Below, piece by piece: positions 6,309 to 24,170 of a stretch of DNA of 43,159 nt (position 1 is the first letter of the stretch; each line of letters starts with the position of its first letter). The notes under the pieces were generated by a model. The model was not told the origin of the DNA. It searched no databases and worked only from the letters and a program-made list of their open reading frames with translations. The stretch comes from a virus, in the IMG/VR virus record IMGVR_UViG_3300025889_015902, positions 1-43,159 of that record; one strand, written 5' to 3'. Made by a program: the position numbers and the translations under genes.

Positions 6309-6318
6309 TTATAAATAT
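6309..6318 (-). promoter_or_regulatory. Late-promoter-like AT element before fibre-like gene
   Basis: The minus strand reads ATATTTATAACAAAAATT, 10 bases before the ATG at 6298. It overlaps the TGA stop of the heptosyltransferase gene upstream, so the structural gene can be expressed separately from the glycosyltransferases. Confidence 0.55.
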
Positions 6319-7514
6319 CAAGAATTTTTTATTCTTTCAATAGCATCAATTATTTTATTAGGATGAATTGTTTTAGTACATTCAAAATGTCTATCTGTTC
6401 CTTTATGTTCAGGACACCATTCCCAATCTCCAGCATCTAGTCTTACTTTATTAAAACAACTATTACAAGCTTTAGAGGCATCAGTAAATATCCTTTCACA
6501 ATCAGTAAATTCACTAAAAGGAGCACTAAATCCTGAGATTAATATGGTTTTACCTCCTAGAGCCCAATTTAACCAGCTTAAACCACTACCAATACCTATA
6601 AAAAACTCAGCATTCATCATATCATTTGCTCTATCAGATAAAGGATAATCTCCAGTTTTATCAATTACCCCAGTTAAGGTTCCTCCTAATTTAGAATCAT
6701 GCCAATTATCTCCTAATTTTTCTTGAGTAATCATTACAACTTTATAACCCTTATTATTTAAATAATCAATAATGGTTTGCCATCCCTTAGGATACATCCA
6801 ATATTTAGCATGGGATGAACCATGAGGGGCAATCACAACATATTTACCCTCAATTTTAGAACCTGTGTTTAAAAATGATAATCTAGGTTTTATTTCTTGA
6901 TAATCAACTCCTAAAATATCTGCACTACATTCTTGTAGTCCATACTTTCTAAAATCAGTAGGATTATAGTTAAAATTTATTGTATTATCTTCATTATAAT
7001 GCCACCCAATACTATACATGGCATATAAATCAGTAGCTGGGGTGCCTGGTTTGATAAATTCAAATTCAGGATATTTGTTTTTAAACCAATTATTATGGAA
7101 AGTAGAACAAATTATATGACAATCGTGTTTCTTTTGGAATTCTTTAATATAAGGGAACCAAGCTAAAGTATCTCCAATTGCTGAGGAATCTAAGTGGATA
7201 TAAATTCTTTTATTTTTAGCATTGTACCTATGTTCATAAATTTCCCCATTCTCTAAATTAGTAATTTTAATAAGGTAATTAATATAATATTTAATAGAAG
7301 TTTTAGTCCACATATTATTATTAATAGTGGATTCATGAATTATTTCATTATTATCTTGATTAATGAACTGAACCAAAAATTTACCCTTTTTTTCTCCTAA
7401 TACTTCAGCAAATGCTCCTTCAATAAAATGACAATTAAAAGACCAACTACCATCTTTAGGTTTAATTTTTAAATTTTTTAGATTATTATATTCTTTGATT
7501 AAAACTTCTTTCAT
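6318..7514 (-). CDS. Protein O-heptosyltransferase of the TibC/AAH (BAHT) type
   Basis: This 398-residue protein closely follows the autotransporter strand-loop-strand O-heptosyltransferase family. It has a beta-rich N-terminal domain (about 1-100) and a GT-B core beginning HLDSSAIGDTLAWFPYI (107-123, with Asp115 at the catalytic position). It continues with CHIICSTFHNNWF, YVVIAPHGSSHAKYW and FIGIGSGLSWLNWALGG for nucleotide-sugar binding. Four cysteines near the C-terminus (C350, C353, C367, C379) match the iron-binding cysteines of TibC. Members transfer heptose from an ADP-heptose donor to Ser/Thr of adhesins. The gene overlaps the preceding GT4 gene by 4 bases (ATGA) and follows the giant Ser/Thr-rich fibre gene in the same operon, so the fibre or another virion protein is the suggested acceptor. 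The donor sugar cannot be read from sequence. Confidence 0.85.
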   Translation of the reverse strand: MKEVLIKEYNNLKNLKIKPKDGSWSFNCHFIEGAFAEVLGEKKGKFLVQFINQDNNEIIHESTINNNMWTKTSIKYYINYLIKITNLENGEIYEHRYNAKNKRIYIHLDSSAIGDTLAWFPYIKEFQKKHDCHIICSTFHNNWFKNKYPEFEFIKPGTPATDLYAMYSIGWHYNEDNTINFNYNPTDFRKYGLQECSADILGVDYQEIKPRLSFLNTGSKIEGKYVVIAPHGSSHAKYWMYPKGWQTIIDYLNNKGYKVVMITQEKLGDNWHDSKLGGTLTGVIDKTGDYPLSDRANDMMNAEFFIGIGSGLSWLNWALGGKTILISGFSAPFSEFTDCERIFTDASKACNSCFNKVRLDAGDWEWCPEHKGTDRHFECTKTIHPNKIIDAIERIKNS

Positions 7515-8455
7515 AAAAATTGCTTATAAACTTCAATTAACTCAATACTTCTATTATACCAACTTAATTCTTGGGCTGTGTTTAATGCTTGTGATGAATA
7601 ATCATCATACCTACTCATAATATCGTTATAACCTGTCTCCATCATAAAAATATCACGTGGTGATCTCCAAGCTCCATGAAAATCTGTTTCCATTTCCCAA
7701 TCAGCTATAATAGGAACCCCACAAGCAGCAGCTTCAACCATTGTTAAATTAGGGTGTCCGGCTTCTAGCATAGTGGGGTGTAAGAAAATTTCATGAGTAT
7801 GAAATAATTCTCTTACTTCTTCTTGAGTAGGATCAAATAAAATTTCTAATTTAGGATAACTTAAAGTCCATAGATGAGAATTAAAAAAGTTTTTATTATT
7901 TTCAGGACCAGCAATTGTAATACTTTTGTTTAATTTAGCAGCAAGTGTTATACCATACTCAAATCCTTTTCTATCAAATCCAGCATTCCCAGCTAACCCA
8001 TTATTAGCTAACATAAAAAATGTTTTTTCTTTTTTTCTAGAAGGATCAGGATAAAAGAAATCGGTATTTACACCATGTGAAAAATACACACATTTAGGAT
8101 GATCAAAATAATTTACTAAAAATTTTGCTGGGAGAAGTGTGATTAATGATCCTTTTACAGCTTCAAAATTTTCTTTAAACACATGAGAATTTTTACCATA
8201 ATGATAGGCATGATGATCATGAAGTTGGTAAATATAAGGAATACCTCTTTTACCTAATTCAATAGCTAAATTAGCTACATGACAATGTACTATATCAAAT
8301 TCTTCAGGATTAATATGATTTGCCATTTTAATATGAACTTCATGTCCTAATTTAGTTTGGTTTTGGTAAAATTCCCAAATTAATTTTTCAATTGCTCCCC
8401 AACTTTTTGGGGGGATGGATAAACCACATCCTGGATCTACATGACAAATTTTCAT
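7511..8455 (-). CDS. Glycosyltransferase, GT4-like (GT-B fold)
   Basis: In this 314-residue protein the N-terminal half has KICHVDPGCGLSIPPKSWGAIE and FDIVHCHVANLA. The C-terminal half has FMLANNGLAGNAGFDRKGFE and the signature LTMVEAAACGVPIIADWE, which carries the conserved glutamate of GT4 retaining transferases for the nucleotide-sugar ribose. It is shorter than most GT4 enzymes (350-400 aa) but both Rossmann halves are present. There is no signal or membrane segment, so it should act in the host cytoplasm. Its ATG overlaps the stop of the preceding gene (TAATG) and its end overlaps the heptosyltransferase start (ATGA), which points to translational coupling and a shared pathway. Confidence 0.85.
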   Translation of the reverse strand: MKICHVDPGCGLSIPPKSWGAIEKLIWEFYQNQTKLGHEVHIKMANHINPEEFDIVHCHVANLAIELGKRGIPYIYQLHDHHAYHYGKNSHVFKENFEAVKGSLITLLPAKFLVNYFDHPKCVYFSHGVNTDFFYPDPSRKKEKTFFMLANNGLAGNAGFDRKGFEYGITLAAKLNKSITIAGPENNKNFFNSHLWTLSYPKLEILFDPTQEEVRELFHTHEIFLHPTMLEAGHPNLTMVEAAACGVPIIADWEMETDFHGAWRSPRDIFMMETGYNDIMSRYDDYSSQALNTAQELSWYNRSIELIEVYKQFL

Positions 8456-11100
8456 TATTTAGCGTATATTTCGGGACTATTTTCGTCCATTCCTTTAAAT
8501 TCTTGTTCTATAATACTAAATCCTGGAAGGTGTTTAGTATAAATTTTTTCTGCTGTTCCTACCTTTAACTGAGCAACATTACATACCCACATATCAAAAG
8601 CATCCCATTTAGTGGTTTTAATTTTATCTTGTATATAAGATAACTTATCATTATTAATTAAATAGGATTGAGCTGGGATAAATGGAGTTACGTCTGTGTA
8701 AATGTCTTCAATTTTAGGCCCATTTAAATTACGATTATTAAATGGGTTTCCAAATCCAATTATATCTTGATTGTTTTCTCTTGCTAATCTACTAAAACGC
8801 TTTAAACTATTATATAATTCACTAAATGGGGAATCAATAATAACATCACCTTCAAAAATTAAAACATAATCATAATCTTTATTATCTTCAGCTAAAATTG
8901 CATCTGTATGGGCTTTAAAACATCCATAATGACCTGGGGCTAATTTATAATATCCAGGAACATCTTGAACATCATCTGGTCGATTACAAGTATCTTTTGG
9001 AGGTAATTCTTTCCAGATTTTATTAATACGTTGTTCGTATTTAATACCTGTTAATTGACAAAATTCTTCTACATTTTCAACAGAACGAATTTCTTTTTCA
9101 TTTGTATCTGGTTCTGTAACTAAATGCATTAATTTAATTTTAGGATTTGGGATATCTGTCTTCCATTTAAACAAACCATTTTTAGATAACTTAGTAAAAT
9201 ATTCTTGATTAACGATAAATGTTTTTGTTTCTACATTATTTGAACTATGAATCTCAAATTCAACTCTAATATCACCCTCAAATCTAATTAAATCCCAGAA
9301 TGAATATTTTTGATTTACATCTAAAATACGATCAATAAATAAATTATCATTCTTATAAACTTTATAGTAAATTGTTCTACTATCTTTACTATTTGAAATA
9401 TAGAAATATGGAGCAAAATAATTTGGAAGATTAGTTGGTAGAACTGTAAAATATTCTACTCTAGAATAATCTCTATGATCAAAAGATTGTAAAGATAATT
9501 TATCAAAATTAGGATCTTTATATAAATTTAAATCTTTAAAAATATGATAAACTACATTTTCTAAACTATTTGAATCTGAATTATATTGGGTTTTTAAAGC
9601 ATCATAATTAGAAGCATTGTTAATCAAAGGAAGAGTAGAAATTAATTTATTTGGATTAGAAGCAAAGTAATAAGTATACAATCCTAATCCTTCACTCATT
9701 TGACATTCTCCAAAATAAAAATCGTAAGTATCTAACTTTAAAGCTGCTTTTTTAATTAATGTATCTTCTTGTAGAACATAATCATAATTAATATAATGAC
9801 ATTTACCATAACCTAATTTACTAGCTAAAGAAGCACCATTATAATAATTAGTATAAACTGTAGGACCATGATATACATCATTACCTTCACCTTGAAGATT
9901 TAAATTAACATCATATTGATCACTCCAAAGAGTAAAAGTTGTATAAAAAGTATGTTTAGTTAAAATATTATTTCTATCATAAACACAATAATCAGATGCT
10001 TCTTGGAGTACGGGAGGGATAGGAGCATGGGATGTTAAAATTACATCATAGCCCTTATTTTTTATTGATTTTATACAGTCTAATGTTGTATTTGTAATGC
10101 TATCTGTTACAGGATACGTGGATATAACAAATGCTTCTTTTTTAGATTTAAACACAGACTTTATTAATTCGCAATTTTTTTCAAAACTATCAAATTCTAA
10201 ATAATTAATCCCTTTAAATTTATCAAAATAATTAAGATAAACAGGTAAATTATATAATAATTGAGGTATTTGATATGATAATGCTTCACGAATAACTAAA
10301 GGCATTGTTTCTTTATCATTAGCTGTACCACGAGAAGTAAATAAGAATAAATCCATCGCCTGATAGAATTTATCTACATCAGTACGTTCATTCCACCAGG
10401 TTAAATTATTGGGTTTTTCTTTCATTAAGGGCTCCCAATAAAATTTAAAATTATCTGCTTGGTTTCCTAAACAATGAAATTCATAGTCAGGTAATGCTTT
10501 AGCATATTCAAAAAATTCCTTTTGATTTTTACGAGGTGTAAATAAACCAACGTGTAAAATATGTTTTTTATCTGGGTTTAACCCTAATTCTTCTAGTGCT
10601 TTAGTTCTATCTGGGCGATCAACATATTCAATAGGATATTCAACTAATATTTGGGGAATATCTACATCTTTATATTGGTTAATTTGCCATTGTGAGACGA
10701 ACATAAATTTATCTGGGAAGAATATTTTTTGAGAAGTATCAAATGATGAATCGTGTGAAGTTTCTACAATAAAATAATCACGATTAGGATTATATAATTT
10801 TTGAGCAACATCAGCATCCATAAAGAATTCCGGAATTTCCTCTAAATGAACAATATCCGGTTTTACTTTATCAATAATATCTAATAATTCAAATTTGTTT
10901 TCTTCTAAAGTATAAAATTTATCAGAATCGATTAGATTTACAAGTTTATTTCTTGTAACTACTAAAACACCTCCAGTACAATCCACCCATTCAACAAGAT
11001 AAATTTCAAAATCTTGTTTAAGTAATTCTACTTTTTTAACTAAATATTGAGGTAAACCTCCTGTTGATAAATGTGGGGCTACATAAAGCAGTTTTTTCAT
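8455..11100 (-). CDS. Multidomain glycosyltransferase (GT4-like + middle domain + GT25-like)
   Basis: This protein of about 881 residues has at least two transferase modules. Residues 1-310 are GT4-like: LLYVAPHLSTGGLPQYLVKK, then ILHVGLFTPRKNQKEFFEYA, and MPLVIREALSYQIPQLL. Residues ~325-655 hold a mixed domain beginning VISTYPVTDSITNTTLDCI that I cannot place with confidence. Residues ~658-881 resemble GT25 (lipooligosaccharide-type) transferases, with PGHYGCFKAHTDAI and DYVLIFEGDVII, the latter at the position of the acidic metal-binding motif. I start at the ATG at 11100, because the in-frame codon at 11109 is only TTG. The stop overlaps the next ATG by one base. A fusion of two transferases suggests consecutive sugar additions on one acceptor. 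Confidence 0.8.
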   Translation of the reverse strand: MKKLLYVAPHLSTGGLPQYLVKKVELLKQDFEIYLVEWVDCTGGVLVVTRNKLVNLIDSDKFYTLEENKFELLDIIDKVKPDIVHLEEIPEFFMDADVAQKLYNPNRDYFIVETSHDSSFDTSQKIFFPDKFMFVSQWQINQYKDVDIPQILVEYPIEYVDRPDRTKALEELGLNPDKKHILHVGLFTPRKNQKEFFEYAKALPDYEFHCLGNQADNFKFYWEPLMKEKPNNLTWWNERTDVDKFYQAMDLFLFTSRGTANDKETMPLVIREALSYQIPQLLYNLPVYLNYFDKFKGINYLEFDSFEKNCELIKSVFKSKKEAFVISTYPVTDSITNTTLDCIKSIKNKGYDVILTSHAPIPPVLQEASDYCVYDRNNILTKHTFYTTFTLWSDQYDVNLNLQGEGNDVYHGPTVYTNYYNGASLASKLGYGKCHYINYDYVLQEDTLIKKAALKLDTYDFYFGECQMSEGLGLYTYYFASNPNKLISTLPLINNASNYDALKTQYNSDSNSLENVVYHIFKDLNLYKDPNFDKLSLQSFDHRDYSRVEYFTVLPTNLPNYFAPYFYISNSKDSRTIYYKVYKNDNLFIDRILDVNQKYSFWDLIRFEGDIRVEFEIHSSNNVETKTFIVNQEYFTKLSKNGLFKWKTDIPNPKIKLMHLVTEPDTNEKEIRSVENVEEFCQLTGIKYEQRINKIWKELPPKDTCNRPDDVQDVPGYYKLAPGHYGCFKAHTDAILAEDNKDYDYVLIFEGDVIIDSPFSELYNSLKRFSRLARENNQDIIGFGNPFNNRNLNGPKIEDIYTDVTPFIPAQSYLINNDKLSYIQDKIKTTKWDAFDMWVCNVAQLKVGTAEKIYTKHLPGFSIIEQEFKGMDENSPEIYAK

Positions 11101-11151
11101 ATAACTCAATTAAGTTTTTATAATATAACATTTATTTTTTAGTAAACCAAG

Positions 11152-11376
11152 TTAAGGTTCAACCCAAATAAAATCTCCTTCACTAAGAGTACTTGTAATA
11201 TCCCCCCAATCTATAGTAATATAATCTTCATTTAAATTAATTACTAATAACTCAAATCCGGTTAAATTCCCATCTATATATTGTTGAATATGAGAACCAT
11301 TATACCCCCAAATATCACTATCATCTTCTTCAAAATGAATTTTATACCCGTTATTTAAATTTGTTAAAACTCCCAT
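11152..11376 (-). CDS. Small acidic protein, function unknown
   Basis: The protein has 74 residues, is acidic and beta-rich, with no Cys, no signal peptide and no recognised domain (ends TLSEGDFIWVEP). It starts 2 bases after the stop of the LamG-like gene and is followed by 51 bases before the first glycosyltransferase. It is therefore expressed with the fibre and glycosylation genes. It might be a small virion or assembly protein, but nothing in the sequence decides this. Confidence 0.6.
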   Translation of the reverse strand: MGVLTNLNNGYKIHFEEDDSDIWGYNGSHIQQYIDGNLTGFELLVINLNEDYITIDWGDITSTLSEGDFIWVEP

Positions 11377-11378
11377 AA

Positions 11379-12338
11379 TTAAAGTCCGTAATAAGCCTTT
11401 GTATTATCTTTTAAGGTTTGTAATGTAGCTGAGGGTTGTGATTGATTAAACACATACCAACCACCAAAAATACCATCGAACCATCTATTACCATTTGCTC
11501 CTCCTCCTACCATCCAGGTCACATCATCATAAAATAAGTTACCCCCTGTACCTGAAATAAAAGTAGCTCCTGATTGCCACCCATTAGGTACGTTCCAAAC
11601 ATAGAAATAATTATTTGTAGAGTTTATAGTAGTACTATTATAAACACCTTGCCATACAATAAAGTTCCATTCATTTTGAGCTACGGTTCCTGATGATTCG
11701 AATGTACGTCTATCTGAAGAAGCAGTCCCGGTTCCATCTCCTTTAATACATCTCATTTTAAATGCAGTTGTAATATCTAACCTATAACCTTTAAATGCTG
11801 GAATTGCATAAGTTTCTAAATTATTTCCTACAACTGTAGTTTGACCTGATGCATTATCTCTAGGATGAATCCAACCACACATTACCATAACCCCAGAAGC
11901 ACCTTGTTTATAAGCTTGACCTGAAGAAACTCCATCAAAAAACCCATAATTATTAGATCTACCACTACTACCTGGGTAATCCCAAGTACCAGATGGGAAG
12001 CCTGGGCTTCCATTAATATTATTATAAGCAATACCTGCTCCATCTACGCCAAAAAAGCTAGGATTTAAATCATTATACGTTTCATAATCACCCCAAACAG
12101 GAGGGGAAAATCGAAATTTCATAGCGTCATGATCATAACTTTTCCAATAACTCATTTTAACCATAGTGCCAGGACCCCCAGCAACAGCAAATGAGGCAGT
12201 ACCTGAGTAATCATTATGGCCATATTGGCATTGACCTAAGGAGTAACCATTACTAGCGACACCTTTGCCCATTTCATTATAAAGGCCATTAGTTAAAACG
12301 CTTCCTCTTAAATATAAATTAGTTGTACTTAAAGGCAT
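11379..12338 (-). CDS. LamG/concanavalin-like structural protein, possible fibre tip or adhesin
   Basis: In this 319-residue protein the pattern in the second half (RLDITTAFKMRCIKGDG, then NEWNFIVWQGVYN, YFYVWNVPNGW, and WFDGIFGGWYVFNQ) is that of a LamG-type jelly-roll: two beta-sheets with a 'surface coating' Trp in the strand after the turn. The first 110 residues are different, Gly/Tyr/Asn-rich and without a clear family. There is no signal sequence. The ATG overlaps the stop of the giant fibre gene (TAATG), so the two are translationally coupled and probably act in the same appendage. Carbohydrate binding is typical of the fold but no binding residues can be assigned here. Confidence 0.7.
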   Translation of the reverse strand: MPLSTTNLYLRGSVLTNGLYNEMGKGVASNGYSLGQCQYGHNDYSGTASFAVAGGPGTMVKMSYWKSYDHDAMKFRFSPPVWGDYETYNDLNPSFFGVDGAGIAYNNINGSPGFPSGTWDYPGSSGRSNNYGFFDGVSSGQAYKQGASGVMVMCGWIHPRDNASGQTTVVGNNLETYAIPAFKGYRLDITTAFKMRCIKGDGTGTASSDRRTFESSGTVAQNEWNFIVWQGVYNSTTINSTNNYFYVWNVPNGWQSGATFISGTGGNLFYDDVTWMVGGGANGNRWFDGIFGGWYVFNQSQPSATLQTLKDNTKAYYGL

Positions 12339-15300
12339 TACTTGTTATTTACTTTATTATCTAACTCTTTAATAGCTTCAATTAATAATGCTACTAATTT
12401 TTCGTATTTAACAGCTTTGTATCCATTATCTCTAGTTTGTACTAATTCAGGTAATACTTTTTCAATTTCTTGAGCGATTACCCCAATGTCGTGTCCTTCG
12501 TATGAAGATTGTTTATCATTCCAATCAAACTCGTAACCATTAATTTGATTAACTTTTTCTAATGAGTTTGTAATTGGAGTTACATTATCTTTTAATCTAG
12601 CATCTGAAGAATAGAACGCGATAACATCACCTGTTGCTCTAATTTCACCACTAACTGTTATTACGTTAGTAGTATTATTAACTGTAATAAAGTCAACTGA
12701 TGATACTTGGGTTGCTGAATCAGTTTTAACTAGGTAATCTGGGTGATCTACAAACGCACCACCACTAATACCACTAGTACCATTAATACTTGTACCTGAA
12801 GTACCTGGGACACCGGATGTTCCTGAAGTACCATTAACACCTGAGGTACCTGCTGCTCCATTTTTACCTGAAGTACCTGAAGCACCATTTGTACCTGAAG
12901 TACCGTTTTTACCTGAAGTACCTGCAGCACCATTTACACCTGAAGTTCCTGAAGCACCGTTTGTACCTGAAGTACCATTTTTACCTGAAGTACCTGAACC
13001 TCCGTTTTTACCTGCTGTACCACCTGAACCGTTAGTACCTGAAGTACCTGATTTACCTGAAGTACCTGAACCACCAGCTATACCTGAAGTACCTGAACCT
13101 CCGTCTGTACCTGAACTACCTGATGAACCAGAAGTACCTGAAACACCACTTTGAGCATTTACCCCAGAAGTACCTCCTGAACCATTTGTACCTGAAGTAC
13201 CTGATTTACCTGAAGTACCTCCTGCACCATTTTTACCTGCTGTACCACCTGATCCATTTGTACCTGAAGTACTAGCTACTCCTGAAGTACCTCCTGCACC
13301 GTTTTTACCTGATGTACCACCTGAACCATTTGTACCAGAAGTTCCTGATTTGCCTGAAGTACCCGCAACCCCATCTTTACCTGAAGAACCGGCTGAACCG
13401 TTAGTACCTGAAGTACCTGATTTACCTGAAGTACCTCCAGCTCCGTTTTTACCAGCAGTACCACCTGAACCGTTTGTACCTGAAGTTGAACTTACACCTG
13501 AAGTACCTCCTGCACCATTTTTACCTGATGTACCACCTGAACCGTTAGTACCTGAGGTACCTGATTCTGCTGAACCTCCACTTGCTCCTGTAATACCTGA
13601 TGTACCACCTGAACCGTTAGTACCTGAAGTGCCTGATTTACCTGAAGTACCTCCAGCTCCGTTTTTACCTCCTGTACCAGCTGAACCGTTAGTACCTGAA
13701 GTAGAAGCAACACCTGAAGTACCTGCAGCACCATTTTTACCTGAAGAACCGGCTGAACCGTTTGTACCTGAAGTACTAGCTACTCCTGAAGTACCAGCAG
13801 CGCCATTTTTACCTGATGTACCACCTGAACCGTTAGTACCTGAAGTGCCTGATTTACCTGAAGTACCTGCAGCTCCATTTACACCTGAAGTACCTGATGA
13901 ACCATTTGTACCTGATACGGCTGATTTACCTGAAGTACCTGCAGCTCCATTTACACCTGAAGTACCATTTGAACCTTTTGTTCCTGAAGTAGCAGATTTA
14001 CCTGAAGTACCTGAACCTCCGTCTGTACCACTTGTACCAGAAGAACCTGATGTACCTGAAACACCACTTTGAGCATTTGCCCCAGAAGTACCTCCTGAAC
14101 CGTTAGTACCTGAAGTACCTGATTTACCTGAAGTACCACCGGCTCCGTTTTTACCTGATGTACCACCTGATCCATTTGTACCTGAAGTACTAGCTACTCC
14201 TGAAGTACCACCTGCACCATTTTTACCAGAAGTACCTCCTGAACCGTTAGTACCTGAGGTACCTGATTTACCTGAAGTACCGTTTGCTCCATTTACACCT
14301 GAGGTACCTGATGAACCATTTGTACCTGATGTTTTGCTTTCTCCTGATAAACCAGCAGCCCCATCTACACCACTTGTACCTGAAGTACCTGATGAACCTG
14401 AAGTACCTGATACAGCTGCTACACCTGAAGTACCTGCTACTCCGTTTTTACCAGAAGTACCTGATGAACCATTTGTACCTGAGGTACTAGCTACTCCTGA
14501 AGTACCTCCTGCACCGTTTTTACCTGATGTACCACCTGAACCGTTTGTACCTGAAGTAGAAGACTTACCAGAAGTACCTGCAGCTCCATTTACACCTGAA
14601 GTACCATTTGAACCTTTTGTACCTGAAGTAGCAGATTTACCTGAAGTACCTGAACCTCCATCAGTACCTGAAGTACCTGATGAACCGCTAGTTCCTGAAA
14701 CAGCACTTTGAGCGTTTGAACCTGTGCTACCATTTGTACCTGTAGAACCTGAAGTACCACTTGTGCCAGCTTTACCTGAAGTGCCACCGGCTCCGTTTTT
14801 ACCTGAAGTACCTGCAGAACCGTTTGTACCTGAAGTTGAACTTACACCTGAAGTACCTCCAGCACCATTTTTACCTCCTGTACCTGATGAACCTTGAGTA
14901 CCTGAAGTGCTAGCTACTCCTGAAGTACCTGCTACTCCGTCTTTACCAGCAGTACCTGATGTACCATTTGTACCTGAAGTGGAAGATTTACCTGAAGTTC
15001 CTGCAGCTCCATTTACACCTGAGGTACCATTTGAACCTTTTGTTCCTGAAGTTGCGCTTACACCTGAAGTACCACTACCACCATCTGTACCACTTGTACC
15101 TGAACTACCTGAGGTACCACTTACTGCACTTTGTGCATTGGAGCCTGTTGAACCGTTAGTACCTGTTGAACCACTTGTTCCTGAAGTACCTGATTTACCA
15201 CTTGTACCTCCAGCTCCATTTTTACCAGCAGTACCTCCTGAACCGTTAGTACCTGAAGTTGAACTTACACCTGAAGTACCTGCAACTCCATTTTTACCCG

Positions 15301-18300
15301 AGGTACCTGATGAACCTTGAGTGCCTGAAGTAGAGCTTACACCTGAAGTTCCTGCAGCTCCATTTATACCGGAAGTACCATTTGTACCTGATGATCCTGA
15401 TGAACCTGAGGTTTTACTTAAACCGGATTCTCCAGCTAAACCATCAACTCCAGAAGTACCGCTTGTACCTGAGCTACCAGATGTACCTGAAGTACTAGCT
15501 ACTCCTGAAGTTCCAGCATTTCCATTTTTACCTGAAGTACCTGCTGAACCATTTGTACCTGAAGTGGAAGATTTACCTGAAGTACCTCCAGCACCATTTT
15601 TACCTCCTGTACCTGATGAACCTTGAGTACCTGAAGTGCTAGATTTACCTGATGTGCCACCTGCTCCATCGGTACCACTTGTACCTGATGAACCGCTAGT
15701 TCCTGAAACTGCGCTTTGAGCATTTGAACCTGTACTACCATTTGTACCAGTTGATCCACTAGTACCTGAAGTACCTGCTTTACCTGAGGTACCACCTGCT
15801 CCATTTTTACCTCCAGTTCCTGTAGAACCGTTTGTACCTGAGGTTGAACTAACTCCTGAGGTACCTGCGATTCCATTTACACCTGAGGAACCTGCTGAAC
15901 CATTTGTACCAGAAGTTCCTGATTTGCCTGAAGTACCGTTTGCTCCATTTTTACCTGATGTACCTCCTGAACCGTTTGTACCTGAGGTACCTGATTTACC
16001 ACTTGTACCCGCTGCACCATCTTTACCATTAGTACCTGTGGAGCCATTTGTTCCTGAAGTGCTAGATTTACCTGATGTGCCACCTGCTCCATCGGTACCT
16101 GAAGTACCTGATGAACCTGAAGTACCTGATACGGCACTTTGAGCGTTTGATCCAGTTGAACCATTAGTACCAGTTGAACCTGAAGTACCTGAAGTACCGG
16201 CTTTTCCAGAAGTACCTCCAGCACCATTTTTACCTGAAGTTCCTGCTGAACCCTGAGTACCTGAAGTTGAACTCACTCCTGAAGTACCTGCAATTCCATT
16301 TACACCTGAGGAACCTGCTGAACCATTAGTTCCTGAAGTACCTGATTTACCTGAAGTACCATGTACACCGTCTTTACCAGATGTACCAGTTGAACCGTTT
16401 GTACCTGAGGTACCTGATTTACCTGAAGTTCCAGCCGCACCATTTTTACCACTAGTTCCTGCTGAACCATTAGTTCCTGAGGTTGAGCTAACTCCTGAAG
16501 TACCACCAGCTCCATCGGTACCACTTGTACCTGATGAACCACTAGTTCCTGAAACTGCGCTTTGAGCGTTTGAGCCGGTTGAACCGTTTGTACCAGTTGA
16601 TCCACTAGTACCTGAAGTACCTGCTTTTCCAGAAGTACCTGCAACTCCATCTTTACCAGATGTTCCTGATGAACCTTGAGTACCTGAAGTACTAGATTTA
16701 CCAGAAGTACCCGCAACCCCATCTTTACCTGAAGAACCGGCTGAACCGTTAGTACCTGAAGTACCTGATTTACCTGAAGTACCGTTTGCTCCATCTTTAC
16801 CAGATGTACCTGCTGAACCATTAGTGCCTGAGGTACCTGATTTACCACTTGTACCCCCAGCACCATTTTTACCATTAGTACCCGCTGAACCGTTTGTACC
16901 TGAAGTTGAACTTAAACCTGAAGTACCACCTCCTCCATCAGTACCTGAAGTACCTGATGAACCACTAGTTCCTGAAACTGCGCTTTGAGCGTTTGATCCA
17001 GTTGAACCATTAGTACCAGTTGAACCTGAAGTACCTGAAGTACCGGCTTTTCCAGAAGTACCTCCAGCACCATTTTTACCTGAAGTTCCTGCTGAACCCT
17101 GAGTACCTGAAGTTGAACTCACTCCTGAAGTACCTGCAATTCCATTTACACCTGAAGAACCGGCTGAACCGTTTGTTCCTGATGTACTACTATTTCCTGA
17201 AGTACCTGCAGCGCCATTTTTACCATTAGTACCTGCTGAACCATTAGTTCCGCTTGTACCAGCTTGACCTGAAGTACCATTATTTCCATTTTTACCTGAG
17301 GTACCTGATGAACCTTGAGTACCAGAGGTTGAACTTAAACCTGAAGTACCACCACCTCCATCAGTACCTGAAGTACCTGAGCTACCTGAAGTACCTGATA
17401 TGGCACTTTGGGCATTTGATCCAGTTGAACCATTTGTACCAGTTGACCCACTGGTACCTGAAGTACCGGCTTTACCAGAAGTTCCTGCAGCACCATTTTT
17501 ACCTGAAGTACCTCCTGAACCCTGAGTACCCGAAGTGCTTGATACACCTGAGGTACCAGCTATACCATTTACACCTGAGGAACCGGCTGAACCATTTGTT
17601 CCACTAGTACCTGATTTGCCTGAAGTACCTGCAGCTCCATCTTTACCAGATGTACCAGCTGAACCATTTGTACCTGAAGTAGAAGCAACACCTGAAGTAC
17701 CTGCAGCACCATTTTTACCTGAAGTACCTGATGAACCTTGAGTACCTGAAGTGCTTGATTTACCAGAAGTACCACCAGCCCCGTCAGTACCTGAAGTACC
17801 TGAAGATCCACTAGTACCTGATACGGCACTTTGGGCAGAATCACCTGCTGAACCTGCTGTACCTGTTGATCCACTTGTTCCTGAAGTACCTGCTTTACCT
17901 GAAGTACCTCCTGCACCGTTTTTACCACTAGTACCTGCTGAACCATTAGTTCCTGAAGTGCTTGATACACCTGAAGTACCACCCGCTCCATCAGTACCTG
18001 ATGAACCTGAACTACCTGAAGTACCACTTACGGCACTTTGAGCTGAAGCACCTGCTGAACCAGCAGTACCACTTGAACCTGAAGATCCTGAGGTACCACT
18101 TGAACCTGATGTTCCGGCTGTGCCTGAAGTACCTGAAGAACCTGAACTACCTGAAGTTCCACTAGAACCTGAAGTTTTACTTGTTCCAGATGTACCTGCT
18201 GTACCAGTAGAACCTGATGTACCTGAAGTAGCAGACTTACCAGAAGTACCCGCAACCCCATCTTTACCTGAAGAACCGGCTGAACCGTTAGTACCAGAAG

Positions 18301-21300
18301 TTGAACTAACTCCTGAAGTACCACCTGCTCCGTCAGTACCTGAAGTACCTGAAGATCCACTAGTACCTGATACGGCACTTTGGGCAGAATCACCTGCTGA
18401 ACCTGCTGTACCAGTAGAACCACTAGTACCTGAGGTACCGCTATTTCCTGAAGTACCTCCATTTCCATCTGTACCTGCTGAACCTGCAGAACCTGATGTA
18501 CCTGAAGTACCTGAACCACCATCTGTACCGGAAGTACCTGAACTTCCTGAAGTACCTGAGACTGCACTTTGTGCATTTGCACCGGTTGAACCGTTTGTAC
18601 CAGTTGAACCAGCAGTACCTGAAGTACCTGATTGACCACTTGTGCCTCCTACTCCGTTTTTACCTGAAGTACCTGCTGAACCTTGAGTACCTGAAGTTGA
18701 ACTAACTCCTGAAGTACCACCCGCTCCATCAGTACCTGATGAACCTGAACTACCTGAAGTACCACTTACGGCACTTTGAGCTGAAGCACCTGCTGAACCA
18801 GCTGTACCTGAAGAACCTGAGGAACCTGAAGTACCTGATGAACCTGAAGTACCAGATGAACCTGAAGTTCCTGCTGAACCTGCTGTACCTGAGCTGCCTG
18901 AAGAACCTGCTGTACCTGAGCTGCCTGAAGAACCTGAAGTACCGCTTGAACCTGATGAACTACTATCTCCTGAGGTACCATTAGTTCCTGAAGAACCTGC
19001 TGTACCTGAAGTTGAACTAACTCCTGAAGTACCACCTGCCCCATCAGTACCTGATGTACCTGAGCTACCTGAAGTACCTGATACGGCACTTTGAGCGGAA
19101 TCACCTGCTGAACCGTTTGTACCCGTAGAACCAGATGTACCTGAAGTGCCTGATTGACCACTTGTACCTCCTACTCCATTTTTACCTGAAGTACCAGCTG
19201 AACCATTTGTACCTGAAGTGCTTGATACACCTGAAGTACCTCCAGCACCGTCTGTACCTGAACTACCAGATGAACCACTAGTTCCTGAAATAGCACTTTG
19301 AGCAGAAGCACCTGCTGAACCAGCTGTACCTGAAGAACCTGAGGAACCTGAAGTACCTGATGAACCAGAAGAACCTGATGTTCCGCTTGAACCTGATGTA
19401 CCTGAAGAACCTGATGAACCCGCAGTGCCTGAACTACCGGAAGAACCTGAAGTACCACTTGAACCTGATGAACTACTATCTCCTGAGGTACCATTAGTTC
19501 CTGAAGAACCTGCTGTACCTGAGGTTGAACTTATACCAGAAGTACCTGAATCTCCATCAGTTCCGGATGAACCTGAAGAACCACTAGTACCACTTACTGC
19601 GCTTTGAGCGTTTGAACCTGTTGAACCATTTGTACCAGTTGAACCACTAGTACCTGATGTACCAGCTTGTCCACTTGTACCCCCAGCACCATCTGTACCA
19701 GCAGAACCTGAGGAACCTGCTGTACCTGAAGTACTAGCTACTCCTGAAGTACCGCCAGCACCGTCAGTACCTGAAGTACCTGAACTACCTGATGTACCAC
19801 TTACAGCACTTTGAGCATTATCTCCTGCTGAACCAGCTGTACCAGTAGAACCACTAGTACCTGATGTACCACTATTTCCTGAAGTACCCCCATCACCGTC
19901 TGTACCAGCAGAACCTGCTGAACCTGATGTACCTGAAGTACCTGAATCTCCGTCGGTACCTGAAGTACCTGAGGAACCTGAAGTACCTGATACTGCACTT
20001 TGAGCAGAATCACCAGCGCTACCTGCAGTACCAGTACTACCTGAGGTACCAGCAGTACCTGAAGTACCACTAGAACCTGAACTACCTGAAGCACCTGAAG
20101 TACCACTACCTCCATCAGTTCCTGAAGAACCTGAGGAACCTGAAGTACCACTTACTGCGCTTTGAGCTGAGTCACCAGCTGAACCTGCTGTACCTGAAGA
20201 ACCTGATGTACCAGCAGTACCTGAAGTACCACTAGAACCTGAACTACCTGATGTTCCTGATGAACCTGAATCACCATCAGTACCTGAACTACCAGAAGAA
20301 CCAGAAGTACCTGAAACAGCACTTTGTGCAGAGTCACCGGCACTACCAGCTGTACCAGAACTACCTGAAGTACCTGATGTACCAGCTTGACCTGATGTAC
20401 CATTATCTCCATCAGTACCAGCAGAACCTGCTGAACCTGAAGTACCTGAAGTACCTGAATCTCCGTCGGTACCTGAAGTACCTGAGGAACCTGAAGTACC
20501 TGATACTGCACTTTGGGCTGAATCACCTGCACTACCTGCTGTACCTGAAGATCCAGATGTACCAGCAGTACCTGAAGTACCACTAGAACCTGAACTACCT
20601 GAAGCACCTGAAGTACCACTATCTCCGTCTGTACCTGAACTACCAGAAGAACCTGAAGTACCTGATACTGCACTTTGGGCTGAATCACCTGCACTACCTG
20701 CTGTACCTGAGCTACCTGAAGTTCCAGCTGTACCTGAGGTACCACTTGAACCAGATGAACCTGAAGTACCTGATGAACCTGAACCACCATCCGTACCTGA
20801 AGAACCTGAACTACCTGAAGTACCACTTACAGCACTTTGAGCATTATCTCCTGTTGAACCATTTGTACCAGTAGAACCTGATGTACCACTTGTACCTGAA
20901 TTTCCTGAGGTACCTCCATTTCCATCTGTACCTGCTGAACCTGCAGAACCTGAAGTACCTGAAGTACCTGAACCTCCGTCGGTACCTGAAGTACCTGATG
21001 AACCACTAGTACCTGATACGGCACTTTGAGCAGAGTCACCAGCGCTACCTGCAGTACCTGTTGAACCACTAGTACCTGCAGTACCTGAAGTACCACTAGA
21101 ACCAGATGAACCTGAAGCACCTGAAGTACCACTACCTCCATCTGTACCAGATGAACCTGAACTTCCTGAAGTACCTGAAACAGCACTTTGAGCTGAATCA
21201 CCTGCTGAACCAGCTGTACCTGAGCTACCTGAAGTTCCAGCTGTACCTGAGGTACCACTTGAACCAGATGAACCTGAAGTACCTGAACTACCTGAACCTC

Positions 21301-24154
21301 CATCGGTACCTGAGGTACCAGATGAACCACTAGTACCACTTATAGCACTTTGGGCATTATCTCCTGTTGAACCATTTGTACCTGTTGAACCACTAGTACC
21401 TGATGTACCAGCTTGACCTGATGTACCATTATCTCCATCAGTACCAGCAGAACCTGCTGAACCTGATGTACCTGAAGTACCACTACCTCCATCAGTTCCT
21501 GAAGAACCTGAAGAACCAGAAGTACCTGAAATTGCACTTTGAGCAGAATCACCAGCACTACCTGCAGTACCAGTACTACCTGAGGTACCAGCAGTACCTG
21601 AAGTACCTGATGAGCCTGAGCTTCCCGAAGCACCTGAAGTGCCACTATCTCCATCTGTACCAGATGAACCAGATGAACCTGAAGTTCCTGAAACAGCACT
21701 TTGTGCTGAATCACCTGCTGAACCTGCTGTACCTGAGCTACCAGAAGTACCTGCGGTGCCTGAAGTTCCTGAAGAACCAGAACTACCTGAGGTGCCTGAT
21801 GAGCCTGATCCTCCATCGGTACCTGAACTACCGGATGAACCTGAAGTACCACTTACAGCACTTTGTGCTGAGTCACCAGCACTACCTGCTGTACCAGAAG
21901 AACCTGAGGTACCTGCTGTACCTGAAGTGCCTGAGGAACCTGATGAACCTGAAGTACCTGAACTACCTGAACCACCATCGGTACCCGATGAACCTGATGA
22001 ACCTGAAGTACCACTTACAGCACTTTGAGCATTTGCTCCTGCTGAACCCGCAGTACCCGTTGAACCACTAGTACCTGAAGAACCTGAGGTACCTGCTGAA
22101 CCACTCCAACCGGAAGTACCTGCAGTACCACTTGAGCCAGAACTTCCGTCTGTACCTGAGCTACCTGAAGAACCTGAAGTTCCCGAAACTGCACTTTGAG
22201 CAGAATCTCCAGCTGAACCAGCTGTACCAGAAGAACCTGAGGTACCTGCTGTACCTGAAGTGCCTGAGGAACCTGATGAACCTGAAGTACCTGAACTACC
22301 TGAACCACCATCTGTACCTGAACTACCAGATGAACCACTAGTACCTGATACGGCGCTTTGGGCTGAATCACCTGCTGAACCTGCTGTACCTGAACTACCA
22401 GATGTACCAGCAGTACCTGAGGTACCTGAGCTACCACTAGAACCAGAAGTACCAGAGCTACCTGAACCTCCGTCTGTACCCGATGAACCTGAAGAACCTG
22501 AAGTTCCCGAAACTGCACTTTGTGCAGAATCACCTGCTGAACCTGCTGTACCAGAAGAACCTGAGGTACCTGCTGTACCTGAGGTACCACTAGAACCAGA
22601 TGAACCTGAAGTGCCTGAGGAACCTGAACCTCCGTCTGTACCTGAACTACCTGAAGAACCTGATGTACCACTTACAGCACTTTGGGCAGAATCACCTGCT
22701 GAACCAGCTGTACCTGAGCTACCTGAAGTTCCTGCTGTACCTGAGGTACCACTTGAACCAGATGAACCTGAAGTACCTGAACTACCTGAACCTCCATCGG
22801 TACCAGATGAACCTGATGAACCAGAAGTACCTGAAACAGCGCTTTGGGCTGAATCACCTGCTGAACCTGCTGTACCTGAAGAACCTGAAGTACCTGAGGT
22901 ACCAGATGTACCTGAACTACCTGATGAACCTGAGCTACCAGATTTACCTGAGGTACCACTATCTCCGTCTGTACCTGAGCTACCTGAGCTACCTGAAGTA
23001 CCGGAAGCACCTGATTGACCTCCGTCTCCAGCACTACCTTGAGTACCACTTGAACCAGCAGTACCTGAAGTTGAACTTATACCTGAAGTACCTGCAACTC
23101 CATTTTTACCGGAAGAACCTGCTGAACCACTAGTTCCTGATGTTGAACTTTCTCCTGAAGTACCTGCTTCACCAGATGAACCTACTGTACCTGATGAACC
23201 ACTAGTACCTGAAGTACCAGTTTGACCTGAAGTACCTGAAGTACCTGAGCTGCCTGATGAACCACTTGAGCCAGAAGTACCTGCTGTACCTGCGGTACCC
23301 GAAGTACCTGAGCTACCTGATGTACCACTTGAACCTGAGGTTCTAGAAGCACCTGATTGGGCGTGACTACCAAATGAACCAGATTTACCTGAAGTACCTG
23401 ATGAACCTGATGAACCTGCATTTCCTGAGGTACCAGCTGTACCACTTGAACCAGATTTACCTGAGGTACCTGAAGTTCCAGAAGCACCCGAAGAACCTAC
23501 ATTACCACTTGAACCAGCAGAACCACTAGAACCAGCTGTACCTGAAGTACCACTTACACCAGCAGAACCTGAGGTACCACTTGAACCTGAGGTACCACTT
23601 GTACCAGAAGCTCCAGGTAATAATCTATATTGTAATACCCCTGTAGAAGGGTCATAAACAGTAAAGTAAAAACTTTCTGTATTTTCTGTTAATGTATTAA
23701 TTTTAACTTCAGAACCACTAATATGAAGTGATCCAGTTAAACCTAATGTATCGGTAGTATAATCATATGTAAAGTTAGCTGAACCACTTAACCCCAAATC
23801 AGGATTAGAACCTGTAGCAAATTGAATTTGTGTGTTATCACCTACAGCAGAGTCAGCTTCAGGAACTAAAATTTGAACACCACCATTAGGAAGTGGGGTT
23901 ACTTCAATTCCTGAACCTGTAAAATAAAATGATTTAGCGTAATTTACTTGAGAGCCTGTGTAATATACTTGAACACCTCCTAAACCAGGAAGAGTACTTA
24001 AGTCAAGACTATGAGATACAGGGTTGCTACCAGTGTAATAAAAATTAATTACACTACCAGCTAAAGAACTAGAGTAATAAAGGGATGAAAAATTCCCATC
24101 TACTTCCGCAAAAGTTAACTCGGATCCTTTATTCTGTCTTAGTATGATACCCAT
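12338..24154 (-). CDS. Giant Gly-Ser/Thr triplet-repeat fibre with S74 chaperone
   Basis: This is a 3938-residue protein. Residues 1-180 form a unique head whose SELTFAEVDGNFSSLY is typical of phage fibre N-termini. Residues 181-3798 are Gly-X-Y triplets, Y mostly Ser and X mostly Thr, Ser or Ala, with no Pro except one copy near the end. Gly periodicity is broken by an AQSAVS/AQSAIS/AQSGVS insert about 37 times. Residues 3799-3938 hold a short beta segment and a Peptidase_S74 chaperone: SSDARLKDN (self-cleavage Ser before Asp), GYEFDWN, then HDIGVIAQEIEKVLPELV and a final helix. S74 domains trimerise fibres and then cut themselves off. The gene follows the neck genes and its stop overlaps the LamG gene. 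Whether the triplets form a collagen-type helix or polyglycine-II bundles is unknown. Confidence 0.9.
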   Translation of the reverse strand: MGIILRQNKGSELTFAEVDGNFSSLYYSSSLAGSVINFYYTGSNPVSHSLDLSTLPGLGGVQVYYTGSQVNYAKSFYFTGSGIEVTPLPNGGVQILVPEADSAVGDNTQIQFATGSNPDLGLSGSANFTYDYTTDTLGLTGSLHISGSEVKINTLTENTESFYFTVYDPSTGVLQYRLLPGASGTSGTSGSSGTSGSAGVSGTSGTAGSSGSAGSSGNVGSSGASGTSGTSGKSGSSGTAGTSGNAGSSGSSGTSGKSGSFGSHAQSGASRTSGSSGTSGSSGTSGTAGTAGTSGSSGSSGSSGTSGTSGQTGTSGTSGSSGTVGSSGEAGTSGESSTSGTSGSAGSSGKNGVAGTSGISSTSGTAGSSGTQGSAGDGGQSGASGTSGSSGSSGTDGDSGTSGKSGSSGSSGSSGTSGTSGTSGSSGTAGSAGDSAQSAVSGTSGSSGSSGTDGGSGSSGTSGSSGSSGTSGTAGTSGSSGTAGSAGDSAQSAVSGTSGSSGSSGTDGGSGSSGTSGSSGSSGTSGTAGTSGSSGTAGSAGDSAQSAVSGTSGSSGSSGTDGGSGSSGTSGSSGSSGTSGTAGTSGSSGTAGSAGDSAQSAVSGTSGSSGSSGTDGGSGSSGTSGSSGSSGTSGTAGTSGSSGTAGSAGDSAQSAVSGTSGSSGSSGTDGSSGSSGTAGTSGWSGSAGTSGSSGTSGSTGTAGSAGANAQSAVSGTSGSSGSSGTDGGSGSSGTSGSSGSSGTSGTAGTSGSSGTAGSAGDSAQSAVSGTSGSSGSSGTDGGSGSSGTSGSSGSSGTSGTAGTSGSSGTAGSAGDSAQSAVSGTSGSSGSSGTDGDSGTSGASGSSGSSGTSGTAGTSGSTGTAGSAGDSAQSAISGTSGSSGSSGTDGGSGTSGTSGSAGSAGTDGDNGTSGQAGTSGTSGSTGTNGSTGDNAQSAISGTSGSSGTSGTDGGSGSSGTSGSSGSSGTSGTAGTSGSSGTAGSAGDSAQSAVSGTSGSSGSSGTDGGSGTSGASGSSGSSGTSGTAGTSGSTGTAGSAGDSAQSAVSGTSGSSGTSGTDGGSGTSGTSGSAGSAGTDGNGGTSGNSGTSGTSGSTGTNGSTGDNAQSAVSGTSGSSGSSGTDGGSGSSGTSGSSGSSGTSGTAGTSGSSGTAGSAGDSAQSAVSGTSGSSGSSGTDGDSGTSGASGSSGSSGTSGTAGTSGSSGTAGSAGDSAQSAVSGTSGSSGTSGTDGDSGTSGTSGSAGSAGTDGDNGTSGQAGTSGTSGSSGTAGSAGDSAQSAVSGTSGSSGSSGTDGDSGSSGTSGSSGSSGTSGTAGTSGSSGTAGSAGDSAQSAVSGTSGSSGSSGTDGGSGTSGASGSSGSSGTSGTAGTSGSTGTAGSAGDSAQSAVSGTSGSSGTSGTDGDSGTSGTSGSAGSAGTDGDGGTSGNSGTSGTSGSTGTAGSAGDNAQSAVSGTSGSSGTSGTDGAGGTSGVASTSGTAGSSGSAGTDGAGGTSGQAGTSGTSGSTGTNGSTGSNAQSAVSGTSGSSGSSGTDGDSGTSGISSTSGTAGSSGTNGTSGDSSSSGSSGTSGSSGSSGTAGSSGSSGTSGSSGTSGSSGSSGTSGSSGSSGTAGSAGASAQSAISGTSGSSGSSGTDGAGGTSGVSSTSGTNGSAGTSGKNGVGGTSGQSGTSGTSGSTGTNGSAGDSAQSAVSGTSGSSGTSGTDGAGGTSGVSSTSGTAGSSGTNGTSGDSSSSGSSGTSGSSGSSGTAGSSGSSGTAGSAGTSGSSGTSGSSGTSGSSGSSGTAGSAGASAQSAVSGTSGSSGSSGTDGAGGTSGVSSTSGTQGSAGTSGKNGVGGTSGQSGTSGTAGSTGTNGSTGANAQSAVSGTSGSSGTSGTDGGSGTSGTSGSAGSAGTDGNGGTSGNSGTSGTSGSTGTAGSAGDSAQSAVSGTSGSSGTSGTDGAGGTSGVSSTSGTNGSAGSSGKDGVAGTSGKSATSGTSGSTGTAGTSGTSKTSGSSGTSGSSGSSGTSGTAGTSGSSGTSGSSGSSGTAGSAGASAQSAVSGTSGSSGSSGTDGAGGTSGVSSTSGTNGSAGTSGKNGAGGTSGKAGTSGTSGSTGTAGSAGDSAQSAVSGTSGSSGTSGTDGAGGTSGKSSTSGTQGSSGTSGKNGAAGTSGVASTSGTNGSAGTSGKDGAAGTSGKSGTSGTNGSAGSSGVNGIAGTSGVSSTSGTQGSGGTSGKNGAAGTSGKAGTSGTSGSTGTNGSTGSNAQSAISGTSGSSGTSGTDGGGGTSGLSSTSGTQGSSGTSGKNGNNGTSGQAGTSGTNGSAGTNGKNGAAGTSGNSSTSGTNGSAGSSGVNGIAGTSGVSSTSGTQGSAGTSGKNGAGGTSGKAGTSGTSGSTGTNGSTGSNAQSAVSGTSGSSGTSGTDGGGGTSGLSSTSGTNGSAGTNGKNGAGGTSGKSGTSGTNGSAGTSGKDGANGTSGKSGTSGTNGSAGSSGKDGVAGTSGKSSTSGTQGSSGTSGKDGVAGTSGKAGTSGTSGSTGTNGSTGSNAQSAVSGTSGSSGTSGTDGAGGTSGVSSTSGTNGSAGTSGKNGAAGTSGKSGTSGTNGSTGTSGKDGVHGTSGKSGTSGTNGSAGSSGVNGIAGTSGVSSTSGTQGSAGTSGKNGAGGTSGKAGTSGTSGSTGTNGSTGSNAQSAVSGTSGSSGTSGTDGAGGTSGKSSTSGTNGSTGTNGKDGAAGTSGKSGTSGTNGSGGTSGKNGANGTSGKSGTSGTNGSAGSSGVNGIAGTSGVSSTSGTNGSTGTGGKNGAGGTSGKAGTSGTSGSTGTNGSTGSNAQSAVSGTSGSSGTSGTDGAGGTSGKSSTSGTQGSSGTGGKNGAGGTSGKSSTSGTNGSAGTSGKNGNAGTSGVASTSGTSGSSGTSGTSGVDGLAGESGLSKTSGSSGSSGTNGTSGINGAAGTSGVSSTSGTQGSSGTSGKNGVAGTSGVSSTSGTNGSGGTAGKNGAGGTSGKSGTSGTSGSTGTNGSTGSNAQSAVSGTSGSSGTSGTDGGSGTSGVSATSGTKGSNGTSGVNGAAGTSGKSSTSGTNGTSGTAGKDGVAGTSGVASTSGTQGSSGTGGKNGAGGTSGVSSTSGTNGSAGTSGKNGAGGTSGKAGTSGTSGSTGTNGSTGSNAQSAVSGTSGSSGTSGTDGGSGTSGKSATSGTKGSNGTSGVNGAAGTSGKSSTSGTNGSGGTSGKNGAGGTSGVASTSGTNGSSGTSGKNGVAGTSGVAAVSGTSGSSGTSGTSGVDGAAGLSGESKTSGTNGSSGTSGVNGANGTSGKSGTSGTNGSGGTSGKNGAGGTSGVASTSGTNGSGGTSGKNGAGGTSGKSGTSGTNGSGGTSGANAQSGVSGTSGSSGTSGTDGGSGTSGKSATSGTKGSNGTSGVNGAAGTSGKSAVSGTNGSSGTSGVNGAAGTSGKSGTSGTNGSGGTSGKNGAAGTSGVASTSGTNGSAGSSGKNGAAGTSGVASTSGTNGSAGTGGKNGAGGTSGKSGTSGTNGSGGTSGITGASGGSAESGTSGTNGSGGTSGKNGAGGTSGVSSTSGTNGSGGTAGKNGAGGTSGKSGTSGTNGSAGSSGKDGVAGTSGKSGTSGTNGSGGTSGKNGAGGTSGVASTSGTNGSGGTAGKNGAGGTSGKSGTSGTNGSGGTSGVNAQSGVSGTSGSSGSSGTDGGSGTSGIAGGSGTSGKSGTSGTNGSGGTAGKNGGSGTSGKNGTSGTNGASGTSGVNGAAGTSGKNGTSGTNGASGTSGKNGAAGTSGVNGTSGTSGVPGTSGTSINGTSGISGGAFVDHPDYLVKTDSATQVSSVDFITVNNTTNVITVSGEIRATGDVIAFYSSDARLKDNVTPITNSLEKVNQINGYEFDWNDKQSSYEGHDIGVIAQEIEKVLPELVQTRDNGYKAVKYEKLVALLIEAIKELDNKVNNK
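12761..23614 (-). repeat. Triplet-coded repeat tract of the giant fibre gene (10.85 kb)
   Basis: About 3618 codons of 9-base quasi-repeats (GGT ACT TCA type) encode Gly-X-Y triplets. Longer units are superimposed, each marked by an AQSAVS-type insert. The N-terminal half uses short units poor in Lys. The C-terminal half uses longer units with GKNGAGGTSGKAGTSG-type segments rich in Lys and Asn. The opposite strand is open over long stretches as a by-product. Confidence 0.95.
22184..22852 (-). repeat. Four consecutive 54-residue (162-bp) units inside the fibre tract
   Basis: SAQSAVS is encoded at 22832-22852 and at 22670-22690, exactly 162 bases apart, and again near 22508, 22346 and 22184. 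The protein units between them are identical, but the DNA differs at many synonymous positions, including switches between TCN and AGY serine codons. Confidence 0.85.
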
Positions 24155-24160
24155 TTTTAT

Positions 24161-24170
24161 TTATAAATAT
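24161..24170 (-). promoter_or_regulatory. Late-promoter-like AT element before giant fibre gene
   Basis: The minus strand reads ATATTTATAAATAAAA, 6 bases before the ATG at 24154. It is probably the start of the transcript that also carries the LamG and glycosyltransferase genes, which have no such element of their own. Confidence 0.55.

Follow-up and report, generated by a model that had tools for sequence, protein, structure and literature searches.

A candidate phage-encoded O-glycosylation cassette adjoining a Ser/Thr-rich, collagen-like fibre gene

Enzymes of the TibC/AAH family (bacterial autotransporter heptosyltransferase, BAHT; TIGR04414) use ADP-D,D-heptose as donor and assemble into dodecamers; they are known from systems with TibA/AIDA-I, in which the enzyme gene lies near that of a long, repetitive, Ser/Thr-rich surface protein. 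The functional residues of TibC comprise the catalytic base Asp110, the donor residues Lys230, Arg286 and Trp305, and the iron-finger cysteines 339, 342, 358 and 370 (Yao et al., PMC4358343). Virion glycosylation itself has a precedent in mycobacteriophages (Freeman 2023, as cited in PMC12619734 and PMC10877033), where, according to the citing papers, phage-encoded glycosyltransferases are believed to act on the phage's own virion. Gly-X-Y triplet stalks occur in the phage fibres EPclA and EPclB of E. coli prophages; the proline-rich EPclA forms a real triple helix, and its recombinant protein carries no glycosylation (PMC3368898). Here we describe a locus that combines these elements, in a 43-kb contig of a T4-like phage (IMG/VR record IMGVR_UViG_3300025889_015902, 43,159 nucleotides (nt), hereafter the window). 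It holds a collagen-like fibre gene followed by three glycosyltransferase genes that are candidates for modifying the fibre. As far as the citing papers describe it, the mycobacteriophage system concerns capsid and tail tube; the present case concerns a fibre of T4-like and other aquatic phages and a TibC-type enzyme. The block comprises, in order of transcription:

12338 to 24154, minus strand: collagen-like fibre, 3,938 residues (PF01391 Collagen; PF13884 S74 chaperone)
11379 to 12338, minus strand: protein of 319 residues with no family assigned, in a slot that holds different genes in related phages
8455 to 11109, minus strand: GTc, 884 residues, with an N-terminal GT4 domain (Pfam), a GT-A-like middle and a predicted C-terminal GT25 fold
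7511 to 8455, minus strand: GTb, GT4-type glycosyltransferase, 314 residues, occurring in many other phages as a fusion with the TibC-type enzyme
6318 to 7514, minus strand: GT9, TibC/AAH-family predicted O-glycosyltransferase, 398 residues (TIGR04414; TibC residues)

As the initial annotation had it, these genes follow each other on one strand, from 24154 down to 6318, and the transferase genes overlap, by 1 nt and 4 nt; a gap of 269 nt separates the 319-residue gene from GTc.

The assignment of GT9 to the TibC/AAH (BAHT) family, also proposed at the outset, is borne out. The curated NCBI equivalog model TIGR04414 matches with 328.7 bits (cut-off 200), against 28.8 bits and less for lipopolysaccharide (LPS) heptosyltransferase models, and the sequence of the TibC crystal structure (4rap) matches with E = 7e-60. 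D115, K237, R295 and W314 of GT9 correspond to D110, K230, R286 and W305 of TibC, and C350, C353, C367 and C379 to its iron-finger cysteines; TibC Thr226 is Ser in GT9. The Asp, Lys, Trp and four Cys are retained in 102-103 of 103 viral homologues, the cysteines in 102. Phage-borne ADP-heptose synthesis was considered and dropped: TIGR02199 (heptose adenylyltransferase) gave no match over the cut-off in the 33 records searched, with sub-cut-off matches in five.

The fibre consists of a non-repeat N-terminal portion of about 180 residues, triplets from about residue 181 to 3797, and an S74 intramolecular chaperone domain at the C-terminal end (PF13884, 71.9 bits). Glycine stands first in 1,083 of 1,205 triplets (90%); since 1,000 shuffles gave at most 435, the repeat is not due to chance. 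Two 501-residue pieces match the Pfam Collagen model PF01391 with 186.4 and 151.3 bits (cut-off 27). Position X holds Thr in 44% and Ser in 25% of triplets (either one in 70%), position Y holds Ser in 61%, and proline is almost absent, whereas EPclA is proline-rich. The fibre had been described as about half Ser/Thr; it is indeed Ser/Thr-rich, though half is slightly high, the content being 43% overall and 46% in the repeat. In Riftia-type collagen, stabilisation depends on Thr in position Y, and this model does not carry over directly, since here Thr occupies X and Ser occupies Y. Ala, Ser or other residues replace Gly in 122 triplets. If the fibre formed a triple helix and were fully extended, at 0.286 nm per residue, its length would come to about 1 micrometre.

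Surveys of related phages, suggested by the initial annotation, link this type of enzyme with this type of fibre. Searching IMG/VR with GT9 retrieved 80 loci. In 34 of them the sequence extends 1.5 kb or more upstream of the first transferase, and 32 of these 34 carry a triplet fibre. As for the other two, L010 begins in an apparent fibre end and L044 breaks off inside the cassette. The recurring order in relatives is fibre, variable gene, GTc, GTb, GT9, second fibre, sheath and tube, with insertions of genes for an FkbM methyltransferase, another methyltransferase, a carbamoyltransferase or an epimerase. By tblastn, relatives of GT9 were found in 4 of 50,697 GenBank phage records. With the fibre repeat as query, BLAST against GenBank phages returned no match, its low-complexity filter discarding sequence of this kind.

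The converse survey began from a DNA pattern for seven Gly-[Ser/Thr]-[Ser/Thr] triplets, and contigs of at least 30 kb were searched whole for TIGR04414. The model was found in 22 of 46 contigs, in 21 of them over the cut-off (p = 1.2e-6 versus the proline control). Leaving out six weak or spurious repeats gives 22/40 (Fisher p = 1.6e-7 and 4.6e-7 versus the two controls); as these six were removed once the search result was known, 22/46 is the plain figure. Neither control class has the enzyme: no TibC-type gene was found in 30 contigs with proline triplets, some of which lack a real triplet run, or in 28 contigs with Thr-rich non-triplet repeats. The enzymes of the 22 positive contigs are diverse, forming 14 clusters at 50% identity, and in 16 contigs the triplet gene lies within about 10 kb of the enzyme, in several orders and orientations. 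Fusions of GTb with GT9 tie the enzymes together.

Within a single lineage, defined with the tail sheath as bait among records of at least 20 kb (excluding one that is truncated within GT9), five records have both genes, 11 have neither (including Flavobacterium phage immuto), three have the enzyme only and one the triplet fibre only (Fisher p = 0.018). This last record (L163:2-8175) encodes a GATGDTG-type fibre, followed by sulfotransferase and other transferase-like genes. In many relatives the flanking genes adjoin directly, without fibre or transferases between them, so the fibre-transferase block behaves as a unit.

We also examined the other two transferases and the 319-residue gene. The AlphaFold model of the C-terminal domain of GTc, the second of its two GT-A-like domains (pLDDT 80.9), has as its best PDB matches the human collagen galactosyltransferase COLGALT1 and Mimivirus R655 (TM 0.56), at 14-15% identity to the COLGALT1/Mimivirus proteins, and Pfam Glyco_transf_25 scores below its cut-off (17.2 bits, cut-off 24). 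This indicates a GT25-type fold, as in COLGALT1 and Mimivirus R655/R699; the similarity is moderate, and generic GT-A likeness contributes to it. Since few GT25 proteins have been solved, the match need not imply a collagen substrate, and the target of COLGALT1 is hydroxylysine, not Ser/Thr. The 319-residue gene had been labelled LamG-like, which could not be confirmed, with no match in Pfam, NCBIfam or PHROG. Its sole relative found in IMG/VR is a near-identical contig, and we therefore dropped it as a conserved part of the cassette.

All large genes of the window lie on the minus strand, transcribed in the order terminase, portal, head genes, PhoH-like gene, three conserved genes, fibre, 319-residue gene, GTc, GTb, GT9, second fibre-like gene, tail sheath and tube. 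The portal is 60% identical to that of Flavobacterium phage immuto and 52% to that of Microcystis phage Mel-JY01 (PP395634), an isolate that carries both fibre and enzyme genes. The tail sheath, the next large gene past the second fibre, has a Ser/Thr-rich insert. Separately, the PhoH-like protein (26911-27648, minus strand) ends in ...SGSSGTSGKSRKG, a short stretch resembling the fibre triplets, and one contig binned with a Flavobacteriales genome (L576) has both a triplet fibre and a cassette of similar make-up, which hints weakly at the host group. Further features around the block are:

24158 to 24169, minus strand: TATTTATAAATA element, candidate late promoter, directly upstream of the fibre start codon
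6310 to 6317, minus strand: TATTTATA element, upstream of the next gene (5258-6298) and past the last transferase
5258 to 6298, minus strand: second fibre-like protein, 27% Ser/Thr, in a slot between GT9 and tail sheath that is kept in relatives
1225, 2869, 5225, 6298, 24154, 26871, 36555, 38485 and 41010, minus strand: gene starts preceded by the element

The element, (A)TATTTATAA and often then CAAAAAT, lies at most 40 nt upstream of these nine starts, and TATTTATA is the reading of most copies in gene direction. The initial observation that late-type elements stand only before the fibre and after the last transferase holds: TATAAATA occurs at 24158-24169 and not again until 6310-6317. The TATTTATA core also precedes many late genes of immuto (L092), and (A)TATTTATAA is a candidate late promoter of this phage group, differing from the TATAAATA of T4.

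Taken together, these observations suggest that the three transferases probably form a phage-encoded O-glycosylation cassette for the fibre. We consider this the most likely reading because the co-occurrence is specific, the genes are adjacent, the enzyme family is protein-directed and its catalytic residues are kept. The gene arrangement, the place of the enzyme in its family together with the retained catalytic and metal residues, and the specific co-occurrence are established here; from these we infer an acceptor, a sugar, an order of steps and a benefit as follows. The TibC-type enzyme would start the glycan on Ser/Thr hydroxyls of the Gly-Thr-Ser and Gly-Ser-Ser triplets, with a sugar that homology predicts to be a heptose donated by ADP-heptose, and GTb and the multidomain GTc would lengthen it; related phages may add methyl or carbamoyl groups. 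The fibre would be coated inside the infected cell, prior to joining the virion, and the likely gain would be a very long fibre that is stable and soluble, withstands proteases and has its surface shielded. The initial annotation also named mimicry of host surfaces as a benefit that the glycans may bring.

A broader proposal, which we put forward tentatively and regard as rather doubtful as a whole, is that many diverse phages build glycosylated collagen. O-glycans started by a TibC-type enzyme on Ser/Thr of a proline-poor triple helix, and extended by partner enzymes (one with a fold like that of animal and Mimivirus collagen galactosyltransferases), would take on the stabilising role that hydroxyproline has in animals, and the fibre could reach about 1 micrometre if fully extended.

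Several observations weigh against fibre glycosylation. One concerns the initial annotation's proviso that transferases without a Ser/Thr-rich fibre would speak against the system: one clade and one further record are of this kind. In this clade (L130, L131, L133, L136-L138 and L144) a short GT4-type and a TibC-type enzyme stand between the same flanking genes, and no triplet fibre was found in contigs of up to 77 kb; its enzymes score near or below the TIGR04414 cut-off. The three enzyme-only records of the sheath lineage all come from a single clade that has two genes between these flanks, and are the best evidence against an exclusive rule. The 636-kb record LR756504 likewise has transferases without a triplet fibre. 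Conversely, the TibC-type gene was not detected in 18 of the 40 triplet contigs, which are fragments. The within-lineage test is small, and the co-occurrence p-values ignore relatedness, host and habitat. The donor-site Arg is retained in only 75 of 103 viral homologues and absent from 28. Finally, the known acceptor of TibC/AAH enzymes is a beta-helix autotransporter with a strand-loop-strand repeat, whereas the candidate here is a phage collagen-like fibre, whose segments match collagen-like families alone; GT9 is thus a member of the family, the two-gene autotransporter system is not present, and the phage cassette differs further in having additional transferases. Given the clade and LR756504, we regard the link between TibC-type enzyme and Ser/Thr-triplet fibre as strong, not exclusive.

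Two other proteins in related phages deserve mention. At the end of the L131 contig (L452:16239-17465) lies a repeat protein with 64% Ser/Thr, built of TTTTFNTS units; many IMG/VR contigs encode proteins of this type. It was considered as a substitute acceptor in the exceptional clade and dropped, because none of the 28 contigs with that repeat has a TibC-type gene. In another related phage the fibre (L141:3-1217) is proline-rich, of GPIGPQG type and with 9% Ser/Thr, and the place of the transferases is taken by a DUF6445 gene (1315-1902), possibly a modifying enzyme matched to proline.

The main rival to fibre glycosylation is that the transferases alter host LPS or capsule, for competitor exclusion or receptor masking, and lie beside the fibre since host-interaction genes cluster. 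Pelagimyophage glycosyltransferases in a host-recognition cluster have been read in this way (PMC7029224), the GT4, GT9 and GT25 families include LPS enzymes, and the clade lacking a triplet fibre retains two of the genes. We nonetheless consider host-surface modification unlikely: GT9 fits the protein-modifying TibC branch far better than the LPS heptosyltransferases, the late-type elements group the transferases with structural genes, and clustering alone leaves unexplained why the enzyme accompanies Ser/Thr triplets but neither control class.

It is also quite improbable that the substrate of the cassette is a different virion protein (second fibre, tail sheath or capsid), with the triplet fibre a mere neighbour. 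The Ser/Thr-rich fibre-like gene after GT9 and the insert-bearing sheath would offer acceptors, the enzymes of the exceptional clade lie directly upstream of the sheath block, and mycobacteriophage capsid and tail tube are described as glycosylated in work cited in PMC12619734. Against this, many sheath relatives lack the cassette (L112, L129, L158 and L166), and the Ser/Thr-triplet association reaches other phage lineages with other neighbours. An indirect link, in which both genes are simply common among large aquatic phages that share hosts and the enzyme does not act on the fibre, would suit contigs drawn mostly from metagenomes, control classes that may differ in host and habitat, and p-values uncorrected for relatedness, but it is highly improbable given that presence and absence mostly agree within the sheath-defined lineage and that 16 of 22 contigs keep enzyme and triplet gene close together in varied arrangements.

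Each element of the proposed system is known: TibC systems, collagen-like phage fibres and mycobacteriophage virion glycosylation. Their combination and its spread over diverse phages appear undescribed, and the open-licence papers searched include none that reports TibC-type genes together with phage triplet fibres. If fibre glycosylation is correct, large aquatic phages would commonly O-glycosylate their fibres as they assemble virions, a step so far overlooked, and many phage glycosyltransferases would be virion-modifying enzymes in place of the host-surface enzymes they are now taken for. Gly-Ser/Thr-Ser triplets would constitute a new acceptor class for the TibC family, and such systems could be found by a sequence rule. 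What Thr/Ser glycosylation does in proline-free collagen would also become testable in a simple system.
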